DNA of 64,000 bases from NCBI RefSeq assembly GCF_000526195.1, contig NZ_JAFP01000001.1:532001-596000 (forward strand), given 5' to 3'. The notes under the pieces are model-generated. The model was given only the letters and a program-made list of their open reading frames with translations. It ran no database searches and was not told the origin of the DNA. Numbering within the stretch: position 1 is the stretch's first letter; every line of letters starts with the position of its first letter. This document shows positions 15,282 to 20,150 of the stretch, piece by piece. Source of the DNA: Hippea sp. KM1. GTDB lineage: Bacteria > Campylobacterota_A > Desulfurellia > Desulfurellales > Hippeaceae. Made by a program: the position numbers and the translations under genes.

Positions 15282-15309
15282 TTGACTTTGTGGAATTTTT
15301 AATTATAAT
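15282..15309 (+). promoter_or_regulatory. Strong sigma-70-type promoter for the oxygen-defence operon
   Basis: TTGACT (15282-15287), 16-base spacer, and a perfect TATAAT (15304-15309). Transcription should start near 15316, giving a 30-base leader with TTGAGGTGTAA before the glycosylase ATG at 15347. Downstream genes are spaced so tightly that this promoter probably drives all six. Confidence 0.65.
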
Positions 15310-15346
15310 ACTTCGCAGTTAATAAAATTTTTCCTTTGAGGTGTAA

Positions 15347-15982
15347 ATGTTTGAAAAACTCCTTCAAATACACAACCAACTAAAGCCCCAGATAGAGAAG
15401 AAGCTTGAGGAATTCAGAGCGGTCTGGGATTCTTCAGAGGAGAGGGTTTTTGAGGAGTTGCTTTTTTGCCTTCTGACACCACAGTCGAAGGCCGAAAGGG
15501 CCTGGCAGATAATTGAAAACCTAAAAAGGGATGGCAAGCTGCTTGATTGCGATGAAGAGGAGTTAAGGGAAAGGCTTAGGGGTGTTAGGTTCAAAAACAA
15601 CAAGGCAAGGTATGTAAGGATGGCTATGGATAGATTCTCAAGAAACGGCAGGGTTATATTAAAAGAGAGGCTTTCTCTGTTTAACGATCAGAAAGAGGCC
15701 CGAAAGTGGCTGGTTGACAATGTTAAGGGAATGGGGTATAAAGAATCAAGTCATTTTTTGAGGAACATAGGAAGGGGAGAGGAGCTTTCAATTCTGGATA
15801 GGCACATCTTAAGGGCGCTTGTTGATTTAGGCCTTGTAAGAGAAATTCCAAAGACAATCACACCTTCGGTTTATCTGAGGCTTGAGGAGAAGGTTAAAAA
15901 GCTATCCAGCGCCACAGCCATACCGATGGCTCATCTGGATTTTGTTCTATGGCAGATGCAGACAAATAGGATATTTAAATAG
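15347..15982 (+). CDS. ogg: N-glycosylase/DNA lyase, Ogg2-type 8-oxoguanine DNA glycosylase
   Basis: A 211-residue helix-hairpin-helix glycosylase. The hairpin region VKGMGYKESSHFLRNIG supplies the Schiff-base Lys, and the downstream ILDRHILRAL contains the catalytic Asp, as in the archaeal/thermophile Ogg2 family. It excises 8-oxoguanine and nicks the strand by lyase action. Unlike endonuclease III it lacks a C-terminal Cys4 iron-sulfur cluster. It leads the run of oxygen-detoxification genes, with rubredoxin starting 7 bases after its stop, which fits a shared oxidative-damage role. Confidence 0.88.
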   Translation: MFEKLLQIHNQLKPQIEKKLEEFRAVWDSSEERVFEELLFCLLTPQSKAERAWQIIENLKRDGKLLDCDEEELRERLRGVRFKNNKARYVRMAMDRFSRNGRVILKERLSLFNDQKEARKWLVDNVKGMGYKESSHFLRNIGRGEELSILDRHILRALVDLGLVREIPKTITPSVYLRLEEKVKKLSSATAIPMAHLDFVLWQMQTNRIFK

Positions 15983-15988
15983 GAGGAG

Positions 15989-16165
15989 ATGGAAGTGAAG
16001 AAGTACAGATGTATCGTGTGTGGATATATTTACGATCCACAGTTGGGTGATGAGGAGAACGATATAGAGCCCAATACACCGTTTGAGGATTTACCCGAGG
16101 ATTGGACATGCCCCATATGTGGAGCATCAAAAGAAGATTTTGAGGAGGTGAAACAAGATGATTAA
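15989..16165 (+). CDS. Rubredoxin
   Basis: A 58-residue one-iron electron carrier. The four iron ligands are C8 and C11 ([11 protein letters not shown]) and C41 and C44 ([10 protein letters not shown]), with the usual aromatic positions. The AGGAGGAG ribosome site overlaps the end of the glycosylase gene. The stop overlaps the flavodiiron start by 8 bases, consistent with it being the direct electron donor to that enzyme and perhaps to the superoxide reductase downstream. Confidence 0.97.
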
Positions 16166-17342
16166 GAAGCTTAAGGAAGGTGTTTACAATGTCGGTGCTA
16201 TCGATTGGGATAGAACCCTGTTTGATGAGATAGTGCCGACCCCGCAAGGCACAAGCTATAACGCCTATCTGGTTATAGGGAAGGACAAGACGGCGTTAAT
16301 TGATACGGTTGAGCCTCAGAAATTTGATGAGTTGAAGAAGAATTTAGAGGAAATGGGTATTGAAAGGATCGATTATATAGTCTCAAACCACGCAGAACAG
16401 GACCATTCGGGCAGCATACCGATGATGTTGGATATGTATCCTGAGGCTGAGCTTATAACCAACGAGAAATGTAAGGGCTTTGAGATGGATCTGCTCCACA
16501 TACCCGAGGATAAATTCACCGTTATAAAAGAGAACGACGAGATCGATTTGGGTGGCAAGACGCTTAGGTTTATCATGACTCCCTGGGTTCACTGGCCAGA
16601 GACCATGAGCACATACCTTGTTGAGGATAGGATACTCTTTAGCTGCGACTTCTTCGGCTCCCATGTGGCCACATCCTATACATTTGCAAAATATTACGAT
16701 AAGGTCTATCACGAGGCCAAAAGATACTATGCAGAGATTATGATGCCGTTTAGGAACTTTATTGAGAAGAATATAAAGAAGGTTGAGGCTTTGGATATTG
16801 ATATGATTGCCCCAAGCCACGGGCCGGTTTTTGATAACCCCGAATACATCATAAACGCATACAAGGAGTGGATCGACCCTGAGCCGCTTAATATGGTCTT
16901 GATAGCCTTTGTTTCTATGCATGAGAGCACCAGGAAGATGGTTGAATTCTTGGCCGATGAGCTTGAGAAGAGGGGTGTTGATGTAAAGATAAGAAACCTT
17001 ACCACGGCGGATGTAGGCGAGATAGCCATGGATTTAGTTGATGTTGCAACCATTATTATAGCCACACCCACGGTGCTTGCGGGGGCTCATCCCAACGCCG
17101 TATATGGAGCGTATTTGGCCAATGTCTTAAGGCCAAAGGCCAAGTTTGCAGGTATCATAGGCTCTTTTAGCTGGGGTGGTAAGGCTGTGGATGTTATAAA
17201 ATCCAACCTATCATCGTTAAAGGTGGAGCTGCTTGAGCCTGTATTGCTCAAAGGCCTGCCCAAGAAAGAGGGGTATGAGAAGCTTAAGGAGTTTGCTCAG
17301 TTGATTTATGAGAAACACAAAGAGGCGGGGTTGATTAAATGA
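16158..17342 (+). CDS. Flavodiiron protein (rubredoxin:oxygen oxidoreductase, FprA family)
   Basis: A 394-residue cytoplasmic enzyme. The N-terminal metallo-beta-lactamase-like domain has the diiron ligands H78-x-E80-x-D82-H83 ([10 protein letters not shown]), then the His in [10 protein letters not shown], Asp in SCDFFGSH and His in APSHGPVF. The C-terminal flavodoxin domain (from about 250) binds FMN and includes [13 protein letters not shown]. It reduces O2 to water, or NO to N2O, with electrons from rubredoxin. Partner rubredoxin overlaps it by 8 bases; the peroxiredoxin gene overlaps its stop by 4. Confidence 0.96.
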
Positions 17343-17989
17343 AAAGGGCTATAGATTTCTGTCTGCCGGATCATGAGAATAACCAGCACTGCCTTGAGGA
17401 TTTTAAAGGCAACTGGATTGTGCTTTACTTCTATCCAAAGGATAACACAAGCGGTTGCACCAGGGAGGCGGTTGAGTTTTCTCAGAAAAAAGAGGAATTT
17501 GAAAGGCTGGGCGCTGTCATCATAGGCATAAGCAAGGATTCACCAAAATCACATGCCAGGTTTATAGAAAAGCACAACCTGAGCATACTACTTTTGAGCG
17601 ATGAGGAGCATAGGGTCTTGGAGGCATACGGCGCCTGGGGCAAGAAGAAGAATTACGGCAAGGAGTATTATGGCACAATAAGGAGCACATTCTTAATAGA
17701 CCCCGACTTAAACATCGTTAAAGAGTGGAAAAATGTGAGGGTTAATGGGCATGTGGATAAAGTTTTGCAGGAACTTGAAAATCTTAAAAACCAACCTATT
17801 AATAGTGAAGAAGTGGTGAATGAGGAGACAGTGATAGAGGTTCTTAAGGATAGGCCTCTAAAGACAAAGGATATTGCCGAGATGCTCAATGCCGATAAGA
17901 AGGAAATCGAAAAGATCATAAAAAAGCTTAAGAAAGAGGGCAGGATAGAAAGCCCAAAAAGATGTTATTACCAGGCAAAGGAGGTTTAG
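17339..17989 (+). CDS. 1-Cys-type BCP peroxiredoxin fused to a C-terminal winged-helix domain
   Basis: A 216-residue protein, some 60 residues longer than a normal BCP peroxiredoxin. Residues 1-150 carry the peroxidatic site YPKDNTSGCT (C40, with the Pro and Thr of the family). The resolving Cys that typical BCPs have five residues later is replaced by Val (TREAVEF). Residues about 160-209 (TVIEVLKDRPLKTKDIAEML, then KKEIEKIIKKLKKEGRI) form a winged helix-turn-helix; C209 lies at its end and could act as a distant resolving Cys. It is in the oxygen-defence operon, 1 base before ferritin. The fusion suggests a redox-responsive DNA-binding protein, which is inference. Confidence 0.88.
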   Translation: MKRAIDFCLPDHENNQHCLEDFKGNWIVLYFYPKDNTSGCTREAVEFSQKKEEFERLGAVIIGISKDSPKSHARFIEKHNLSILLLSDEEHRVLEAYGAWGKKKNYGKEYYGTIRSTFLIDPDLNIVKEWKNVRVNGHVDKVLQELENLKNQPINSEEVVNEETVIEVLKDRPLKTKDIAEMLNADKKEIEKIIKKLKKEGRIESPKRCYYQAKEV

Positions 17990-17990
17990 G

Positions 17991-18494
17991 ATGATTGCTA
18001 AAGAGATGGAAGAGGCGCTGAACAAGCAGATAAACGAGGAGTTGTATTCTGCGTATCTGTATCTGTCGATGTCTGCGTGGTTTGATTCTATTGGACTTAA
18101 GGGTTTTGCCAACTGGATGATGGTTCAGTATAAGGAAGAGACGGATCACGCCATGAGGTTGTTTAATTACCTGTCAAGGCAGGGTGCCAAGATAGAGCTT
18201 AAGGCAATTGCAGAGCCGCCAAAGGAGTGGAAATCGCCCCTTCATGCAATGGAGGAGACGCTTAAGCATGAGCAGCATATAACAAAGTGCATCAACGAGC
18301 TTGTGGATTTGGCTGAGAAGCTGAAAGATAGAGCGACCTATAACATGCTGCAGTGGTTTGTTGATGAGCAGGTCGAGGAAGAGGAGAACGACAGGGATAT
18401 AATCGATAAACTCAAACTCGTTGAAGACAGCAAGCACGGCATACTGCTTGTGGATAAAGAGTTGGCTCAAAGGCAATATAAGCCTGAAATATAA
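17991..18494 (+). CDS. ftnA: Ferritin (ferroxidase)
   Basis: A 167-residue four-helix bundle iron-storage protein. Helix A shows NEELYSAYLYLSMSAWF, helix B EETDHAMRLFNYL, and helix C-D DEQVEEEEND, giving the usual Glu/His ferroxidase ligands of FtnA. No Met-rich haem pocket of bacterioferritin is seen. It oxidises and stores Fe2+, limiting Fenton chemistry when peroxide is present. It is one base downstream of the peroxiredoxin and upstream of superoxide reductase. Confidence 0.95.
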   Translation: MIAKEMEEALNKQINEELYSAYLYLSMSAWFDSIGLKGFANWMMVQYKEETDHAMRLFNYLSRQGAKIELKAIAEPPKEWKSPLHAMEETLKHEQHITKCINELVDLAEKLKDRATYNMLQWFVDEQVEEEENDRDIIDKLKLVEDSKHGILLVDKELAQRQYKPEI

Positions 18495-18515: not shown

Positions 18516-18899
18516 ATGACACAGAAGTTGCAGGTATGGAAGTGCGATATTTGCGGTAATATCGTTGAGGTGATTCATGAGGGTGCGGATGCATTGGTAT
18601 GTTGCGGTCAACCCATGAAGCTTTTAGAGGAACAGACAGCAGATTCATCCACAGAGAAGCATGTGCCCTTCATAGCAAGAGAGGGTAATGCCTATGTGGT
18701 TAAGGTGGGTGAGAATCAGGCACATCCAATGGAGGAGAAGCACTATATAGAGTGGATTGAGCTCATTGTTGACGGTGTTGTTTACAGGAAATTCTTAAGT
18801 CCTGGTGATGCACCCGAGGCAAGGTTTGAGGTGCCTGAAGGGAAAGAGGTTTCAGCAAGGGAGCTTTGCAATATCCACGGCCTGTGGGCAAAAAAGTAA
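18516..18899 (+). CDS. dfx: Desulfoferrodoxin (superoxide reductase)
   Basis: A 127-residue two-domain protein. The N-terminal desulforedoxin site has C10, C13, C29 and C30. The C-terminal catalytic iron site uses H49, H70, H76, C118 and H121 ([24 protein letters not shown]). It reduces superoxide to peroxide without making O2, drawing electrons from rubredoxin. AGGAGGTG precedes the ATG. It is the last gene of the operon, followed at once by a strong bidirectional terminator. Confidence 0.97.
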
Positions 18900-18906
18900 A
18901 TCAAAC

Positions 18907-18940
18907 AAAAAAGGGGAGCCTCTGAAGACTCCCCTTTTTT
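18907..18940. terminator. Bidirectional intrinsic terminator
   Basis: AAAAAAGGGGAG pairs with CTCCCCTTTTTT around a 10-base loop, giving a perfect 12-base stem with A and T runs on the two sides. It serves desulfoferrodoxin on the plus strand and the converging rod-like flagellar gene on the minus strand. Confidence 0.9.
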
Positions 18941-18966
18941 AAAAAAATCCCAAAGCCAACAAGCTG

Positions 18967-19278
18967 TTAGGCTTTGATGTCGATTAGACTCCCTATCATT
19001 TCGTTTTGCGCCCTTAACACATTGACATTGGCCTTGTTTTGGGCCTGGTTGTTTATCTGGTTAACCGTCTGGTCAACGAGGCTTACATTGTTGCCGTTTC
19101 TATTGGGGGCTGCTTTGGATAGGGTGGTTTTGGCCTCAACCCCACCGCCTCCTGCTTCCTCATTTATGACATTGATCTGTTTGTAGTTCTTGGTGTTTAT
19201 ATTGGCCACATTGTTAGCCGTTACATCCTGTCTGTAAAAGGCATTTTTAATACCGCTTACAGATGTGTTTATATTCAT
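18967..19278 (-). CDS. Small flagellar rod/hook-family protein
   Basis: A 103-residue protein with the N-terminal Flg_bb_rod signature (INTSVSGIKNAFYRQDVTAN, then NVANINTKNYK) and the C-terminal coil found in axial flagellar proteins (NVLRAQNEMIGSLIDIKA). There is almost nothing between the two, making it much shorter than FlgC or FlgF. It is isolated from other flagellar structural genes, the nearest being the chemotaxis genes 17 kb away. GGGGGAGCTT precedes the ATG. Role probably in the rod or hook; which component is unclear. Confidence 0.8.
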   Translation of the reverse strand: MNINTSVSGIKNAFYRQDVTANNVANINTKNYKQINVINEEAGGGGVEAKTTLSKAAPNRNGNNVSLVDQTVNQINNQAQNKANVNVLRAQNEMIGSLIDIKA

Positions 19279-19346: not shown

Positions 19347-20150
19347 CTATTTTTTTAGGTTTTCTATGATCAACTGTGCGGCCTTTTTGCCTGAGTTGAG
19401 CATTCCTCCAAAAACAGGCCCCATCCTGTGAGAGCCACTAACGGCAACCGCAGCCATACCGGCCACTATTAGACCGGGATAGACCTCCTGGGTTTCCTCT
19501 ATTGTTGACTGCTCACCAACCTCAGCCCACATGGGCTTCTCGCCAACCACAACACCCTGAGGTGTGTTGAGTTTTATACCCCCTTTGCGTGTTAGGATGC
19601 TGGCTATCTCTGCATCGTGCCCTGTTGCATCGACAACATACTTGCTTGTTATAACCAGTGGATCCACCAGAAGATGGGCCATATTGACGGTTGTCCATCC
19701 GACCACAAGACCGTTGACCCTGTATTGACCGTCTATCTTCTTAAAGACAACATCCTCAACCTCTATGGCGTTGAATATCTTTGCACCCGCCTTAACGGCC
19801 TTTGATATGAGTGTTGTTGTGGCCTCTATGGAGTCTGCGGTGTAATAGCCGTCTGTATATTTCTCATAGTTGATGCCAAACTCCTCTAATATCTCCCTTC
19901 CTATATCCTGCACGACTATCTCGTTAAAGAGCATTGCGCCGCCCCACATGCCGCCACCGATGGTTAGCCTTTTGTCGAATATGGCCACCTTTACATTGGC
20001 CTTTGCTAAATAGTATGCACAAACCAATCCAGCTGGTCCGCCGCCGACAATGGCTGCATCGCACTCCAGGTAATCGATCAGCTTGTTCATATACCTTTCG
20101 ACAATGGCTTTTGATATGATTTTCTCATCTAAGTTATTCATCAAACTCAC
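19347..20150 (-). CDS. thi4: Sulfide-dependent thiazole synthase, Thi4 family
   Basis: A 267-residue FAD/NAD-binding Thi4/ThiC4-type enzyme making the thiamine thiazole from NAD, glycine and sulfur. Dinucleotide motif AAIVGGGPAGLVCAYYLA (residues 32-49), GGGMWGGAM, DATGHDAEIASIL and SGSHRMGPVFGGML are visible. The only cysteines are C30 and C44, both in the N-terminal Rossmann area; the loop holding the sacrificial Cys in yeast reads AHLLVDPLV here. It should therefore use free sulfide, as archaeal Thi4 does. It follows the GT39 gene by 3 bases. thiE lies at 45.3 kb. Confidence 0.9.
   Translation of the reverse strand: MSLMNNLDEKIISKAIVERYMNKLIDYLECDAAIVGGGPAGLVCAYYLAKANVKVAIFDKRLTIGGGMWGGAMLFNEIVVQDIGREILEEFGINYEKYTDGYYTADSIEATTTLISKAVKAGAKIFNAIEVEDVVFKKIDGQYRVNGLVVGWTTVNMAHLLVDPLVITSKYVVDATGHDAEIASILTRKGGIKLNTPQGVVVGEKPMWAEVGEQSTIEETQEVYPGLIVAGMAAVAVSGSHRMGPVFGGMLNSGKKAAQLIIENLKK

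Follow-up and report, generated by a model that had tools for sequence, protein, structure and literature searches.

In Hippea sp. KM1, a heat-loving anaerobe like other members of its genus, a single open reading frame encodes a PrxQ/BCP peroxiredoxin (Prx) joined to a C-terminal winged helix (wHTH). The wHTH domain is under purifying selection and belongs to an overlooked, nameless family of about 60 residues with one near-invariant cysteine in the wing. The fusion has no characterised equivalent in the literature searched and its component parts are of known kinds. Besides destroying peroxide, the fusion protein may also sense it, and it is tentatively proposed, at somewhat less than an even chance, that it is a peroxidase bearing a local redox-responsive regulator.

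The fusion protein and its operon

The window is the whole 64,000-nucleotide stretch of DNA that was analysed, and it belongs to a genome assembled as a single contig of 1.74 Mb. The fusion and the features around it are listed in Table 1. The N-terminal domain matches the Pfam family AhpC-TSA over residues 2-127 (126.6 bits against a gathering score of 26) and is best covered by the NCBIfam PrxQ models (2.9e-48), with solved BCPs in the PDB as its nearest named relatives. Two NCBIfam PrxQ equivalog cut-offs are missed (163.6 against 260 bits and 132.7 against 140 bits), these being narrow equivalog models that do not represent the whole PrxQ subfamily. The active site around C40, PKDNTSGC, fits the PrxQ/BCP motif P(K/A/R)(D/A)xTxGC (PMC5302317). 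An earlier note on this DNA had described a BCP domain followed by a wHTH, with C40 as peroxidatic cysteine, no resolving cysteine at the C+5 position and C209 as the sole cysteine of the wHTH, and had known of no characterised protein of such architecture. All of this agrees with the domain searches, the predicted fold and the sequence, in which the C+5 residue is valine (V45), and no Prx-HTH fusion was found in the literature searched. Two conserved cysteines inside the BCP domain, C8 and C18, were absent from that description.

Table 1. Features of the fusion gene and its operon in the window
Feature	Position	Strand	Evidence
Operon promoter, TTGACT-N16-TATAAT	15282-15309	+	11/12 consensus positions; aligned in seven species
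Conserved element starting at the -10 box (TATAATACTTCGCAGTTAATAAAATTTTT), candidate operator or leader	15304-15332	+	Seven species, fused or unfused
Ogg-type 8-oxoguanine DNA glycosylase	15347-15982	+	Pfam 1.9e-56; NCBIfam N-glycosylase/DNA lyase above cut-off
Rubredoxin, 58 aa	15989-16165	+	Sequence; resembles rubredoxin end of H. maritima flavin reductase-rubredoxin
FprA-type flavodiiron protein	16158-17342	+	ODP 8.5e-31 and flavodoxin domain
PrxQ/BCP-wHTH fusion protein, 216 aa	17339-17989	+	ORF and translation; orthologous fusions in three other genomes
PrxQ/BCP peroxiredoxin domain, residues 1-147	17339-17779	+	AhpC-TSA 6.6e-37; PDB BCP relatives 8.5e-33
Linker, residues 148-161, fast evolving	17780-17821	+	Ka/Ks on 14 codons
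Winged-helix domain, residues 162-214	17822-17980	+	AlphaFold, Foldseek, family alignment, Ka/Ks
Wing motif SPKRCYY, residues 205-211	17951-17971	+	Near-invariant in 38 family members
C8 codon	17360-17362
C18 codon	17390-17392
C40 codon (peroxidatic)	17456-17458
C209 codon	17963-17965
Ferritin	17991-18494	+	Pfam 1e-45
Desulfoferrodoxin (superoxide reductase)	18516-18899	+	TIGR00320 above cut-off, 1.4e-56
Terminator-like hairpin 3' of operon	18906-18941	.	Listed for - strand

The genes for Ogg, rubredoxin, FprA, the fusion, ferritin and desulfoferrodoxin (Dfx) form an oxidative-stress operon. The hairpin downstream could also be used by the plus-strand operon, because a T run lies at its other end. 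The conserved element at the promoter has one perfect site in the window genome, at this operon, and one further site with three mismatches. As it is conserved in fused and unfused species alike, it assigns no operator to the fusion; no shared palindromic operator was found in the upstream regions of the seven species. Among RNA families, the searched region contained only an upstream tRNA, and inspection of the fused genes by eye revealed no in-frame ATG near the linker from which a free wHTH might be translated.

In H. maritima a 234-aa flavin reductase-rubredoxin (L072 2638-3342) occupies the place of the short rubredoxin; the operon of the window genome has no flavin reductase part. The operon is followed by convergent genes, a short flagellar-type sequence (18967-19278) and a Thi4-like gene (19347-20150), in an order conserved in most genomes of the genus.

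The winged-helix domain and its family

The C-terminal ~53 residues of the fusion give weak matches to many winged-helix families, all below the gathering cut-off. None of the regulator families tested (Rrf2, MarR, ArsR and TrmB) was reached at its cut-off, the best being Rrf2 with 25.1 against 30 bits. Structure prediction, which the earlier note had suggested as a check, gave a wHTH fold. The AlphaFold model from a 38-sequence alignment has a pLDDT of 80 and the order H-H-H-E-E (H12-21, H26-32, H37-50, E53-57 and E60-63), consisting of three helices and a β-hairpin wing. Foldseek matches this model to winged helices with TM values of 0.7-0.8, among them Z-alpha, MarR/ArsR and FeoC. Dimerisation helices flanking the wHTH are absent, the domain being ~55 aa long and most stand-alone members consisting of 57-67 aa of wHTH only.

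Stand-alone relatives in the alignment range from 57 to 83 aa, and their wing motif, SP(K)RC(Y/F)Y, hardly varies. The wing cysteine is present in 37 of the 38 members and is preceded by arginine in nearly all of them. The domain is basic, with a net charge of +1 to +8 (+1 to +4 for the Hippea domain). Z-alpha domains contact Z-DNA through an Asn and a Tyr of the recognition helix; at these positions, compared by eye, the residues of the family appear charged. A mixed alignment of BCPs and stand-alone wHTHs was discarded, as MAFFT had placed the wHTHs on the BCP C-terminus.

The nearest solved relative is PscE of Chlorobaculum tepidum (Q8KDI3; 7UEB chain E), which is found by the family profile at 6.7e-23 and by the window domain alone at 8.9e-9 (phmmer). 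With significant homology, a length of 59 aa and a wing of SPKRCYW, conforming to SPKRC(Y/F)(Y/W), PscE is by sequence a member of the same small family. It has been reported as a helix-turn-helix subunit of the reaction-centre supercomplex that contacts PscC and FMO (PMC9529944). As PscE is a protein-bound subunit, DNA binding by the wHTH cannot be assumed. The assignment of PscE, or possible moonlighting, deserves a second look.

Distribution and evolution of the fusion

The fusion is intact in four species of the Hippea group, namely the window genome (G000), H. maritima (G007), G008 and G001, two of which have single-contig genomes. Between the closest two fused species Ka/Ks is 0.035 for the BCP domain, 0.049 for the wHTH and 0.75 for the linker, the last on only 14 codons. 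This conservation and the low Ka/Ks show that the reading frame is neither a product of chance nor a sequencing slip. The same BCP is unfused in G002, G003, G005 and G006, and where this was checked (G002, G005 and G006) it sits in the same operon. Profile searches gave at most one wHTH copy per genome of the genus. The fused genomes hold it only as the fused copy, with no free wHTH; G002 and G005 have only a free 59-aa wHTH, at another locus beside a thioredoxin-like gene; and no copy was found in G003, G004 and G006, the assemblies of which are incomplete or fragmented. A single origin was not recovered, as the trees lacked resolution and the fused sequences did not form one clade; the fusion may be ancestral and have been lost later in some members. 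Two other phyla, covered by wider searches, yielded no additional fusion.

In sister genera the operon has the order Ogg-PerR-rubredoxin-Dfx-FprA-wHTH (rubredoxin was seen in G014), with a free wHTH directly after FprA, the position of the fusion in Hippea. Judging from this order, the fusion occupies the place of a former PerR and free wHTH. Each Hippea-group genome has one Fur-family gene, outside the operon, and in the sister genera the BCP is encoded at another locus. A YgbA_NO-family gene follows the wHTH in sister-genus operons (L062 2646-2963, L063 3217-3534 and L066 3064-3381). BCPs that are 65-76% identical to the Hippea BCP also occur on short contigs of MAGs labelled as DHVE2 archaea (L032-L043, L059), by lateral transfer or mis-binning.

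Gene contexts of stand-alone winged helices

Outside the genus, the wHTH has stress-gene neighbours (SOR, Rbr, Prx, PerR, ferritin or FprA, within about two genes) in 10 of 21 lineages, archaea included, the lineages being a grouping made for this analysis. The binomial probability of this count is ~2e-8 at an assumed background of 5% and 1e-5 at 10%. About half of the stand-alone copies do not adjoin stress genes. Besides the sister-genus operon, the arrangements seen are ferritin-SOR-DUF308-wHTH-AhpC in archaeal DHVE2 MAGs, PerR-AhpC-ferritin-wHTH in a Thermosipho MAG, PerR-wHTH-Rbr-AhpC-...-Dfx in deltaproteobacterial MAGs, PerR-wHTH-AhpC-Dfx in G022 (likewise in G024, with a shortened upstream ORF), Dfx-wHTH-Rbr in G222, Rbr-wHTH-SOR in G149, PerR-Rbr-wHTH in G265, Rbr divergent from wHTH in G210 and wHTH-ferritin-like-Rbr in G160. 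PerR/Fur and wHTH are read as one 216-aa ORF in a single MAG (G020; L122 3521-4171), possibly a second fusion of the domain, and are separate overlapping genes in its relative G022.

In AhpC-type peroxiredoxins of the PerR-wHTH-Rbr operons (L154 4665-5264, L156 2578-3171 and L157 4682-5275; PerR was observed in the latter two), the codon of the peroxidatic cysteine is replaced by a TGA in frame (FTFV*PTE/PSE), so that these enzymes are probably selenoproteins.

Possible functions of the fusion

In the regulatory reading, the PrxQ peroxidase would bear, on a flexible linker, a member of a family that may provide local redox-responsive regulators to the oxygen-defence operons of anaerobes, and in Hippea it would have replaced the PerR and free wHTH of the sister-genus operon. 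The target of the wHTH would be the promoter of its own operon or a partner at that site. This binding would be altered by oxidation via C209, the wing thiol adjacent to Arg208, either directly or by disulfide or thiol exchange from the peroxidase, while the Prx domain removes peroxide. The Arg-Cys pair of the wing could make a reactive thiol.

Regulation is suggested by the fold and basic character of the domain, its wing cysteine after arginine and the selection upon it, and by its repeated position beside peroxide and superoxide defence genes and its pairing with PerR, to which the ORF of G020 would tie it a second time. The operon order in sister genera, the sole Fur-family gene of Hippea-group genomes lying outside the operon, the lack of a free wHTH in the fused genomes and the single perfect site of the promoter element are consistent with this. 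Set against it are the conservation of that element where the BCP is unfused, with no common palindrome, and the size of the domain, which has no dimerisation helix and falls below every regulator-family cut-off. Roughly half of the stand-alone copies lie away from stress genes, no copy was found in three genus members whose assemblies are incomplete or fragmented, and PscE is bound to protein in a photosynthetic supercomplex.

PscE also bears on the main rival explanation, that the wHTH is a docking adaptor which binds FprA, ferritin, Dfx, rubredoxin or a membrane complex and places the peroxidase there, with no transcriptional role. In the cryo-EM supercomplex PscE was placed between PscC and FMO and it was detected by mass spectrometry, although it was modelled de novo and its sequence is present in only one PDB entry. 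The structural matches include the small stand-alone wHTH FeoC, translation of the fusion takes place beside that of FprA and ferritin, and a wing motif constant across phyla suits a constant partner better than varying operators. However, no partner gene is common to all lineages, and the repeated pairing with PerR, with one PerR fusion, suggests regulation; docking is considered unlikely.

A bolder form of the regulatory reading is more doubtful. Here the fusion would be a self-contained sensor-effector, in which oxidation of the Prx is passed within the polypeptide or dimer to the wing cysteine and switches its own defence operon. It would then exemplify a general family of thiol-switch wHTHs, which would serve PerR, SOR and rubrerythrin operons in both bacteria and archaea and from which green sulfur bacteria would have recruited PscE.

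It is improbable that DNA binding of low sequence specificity by the wHTH holds a protective peroxidase near the chromosome, somewhat as Dps combines DNA binding with iron oxidation. The basic wHTH, the presence of Ogg and ferritin in the operon and a conserved wing amid varied flanking loci would fit such tethering, but the Hippea domain has a low net charge, and tethering cannot be the basic task of the family since most lineages have free wHTHs with no attached enzyme.

The earlier note had proposed a one-protein peroxide sensor, in which a disulfide between C209 and oxidised C40 switches the wHTH on its own operon. The missing C+5 cysteine, C209 as the only cysteine of the wHTH and a ~14-residue linker that could allow contact are in keeping with this proposal, but comparison of the cysteines did not uphold it. 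Members of the BCP clade that holds the fusion, fused and unfused alike, have both C8 and C18 and lack a cysteine at C+5 (one member has all three). The missing C+5 is thus not tied to the fusion, BCPs that lack it being equally common unfused. Similarly, C209 falls within the wing motif, the cysteine of which is kept in relatives nearly all of which have no attached Prx, and so it is not there for the Prx. C8 and C18 would offer C40 alternative partners within its own domain. The single-sequence AlphaFold model of the full-length fusion (pLDDT 43.7) is too low in confidence to give a domain arrangement or a C40-C209 distance. An intramolecular C40-C209 bond is possible but gains no support from the comparison, and the one-protein sensor as a whole is very improbable.

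Least probable is a neutral merger of two neighbouring operon genes whose parts work as before without communication: the free wHTH after FprA in sister genera lies exactly at the position of the fusion, the linker is poorly conserved and several genus members do without the fusion, but four diverged species have kept it intact and, with the BCP at another locus in sister genera, relocation as well as fusion would be needed.

Significance and comparison with known systems

The fusion draws attention to an overlooked family of small wHTHs associated with oxygen defence in bacteria and archaea that live anaerobically. The linkage of these wHTHs to peroxidases and PerR, both physical and genomic, is a first lead to the function of the family. 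A further question is why one member, PscE, has been described as a subunit of a reaction centre. Should the wHTH bind DNA, it would add a second, thiol-based layer of control to PerR-type operons in anaerobes; if it docks on proteins, PscE and the fusion would share a hidden scaffold role.

With PrxQ/BCP proteins such as Xanthomonas BCP (PDB 5iox) the fusion has in common the PKDxTxGC active site and the AhpC-TSA fold over residues 2-147. It differs in lacking the C+5 resolving cysteine, which is common but not universal among them, in possessing C8 and C18, and in its C-terminal wHTH, which is absent from all unfused BCP relatives examined. PscE shares the wHTH family but belongs to a photosynthetic supercomplex, is unfused and is outside a peroxide operon as far as is known, whereas Hippea is a non-phototrophic sulfur reducer. 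Among small wHTH folds, Foldseek and profile comparison place nearest the Z-alpha domains of ZBP1 and ADAR1, and FeoC, which docks on FeoB. The PerR/Fur regulators of anaerobe oxidative-stress operons are found with the same operon content, and the wHTH family is often encoded beside PerR. However, they are of a different fold family, and PerR senses by metal-catalysed oxidation of histidine where the wHTH may use a thiol. In Gpx3(Orp1)-Yap1 and similar relays a peroxidase thiol hands oxidation to a transcription factor; the logic proposed here would be alike, but those relays use two proteins and the Hippea fusion a single polypeptide.
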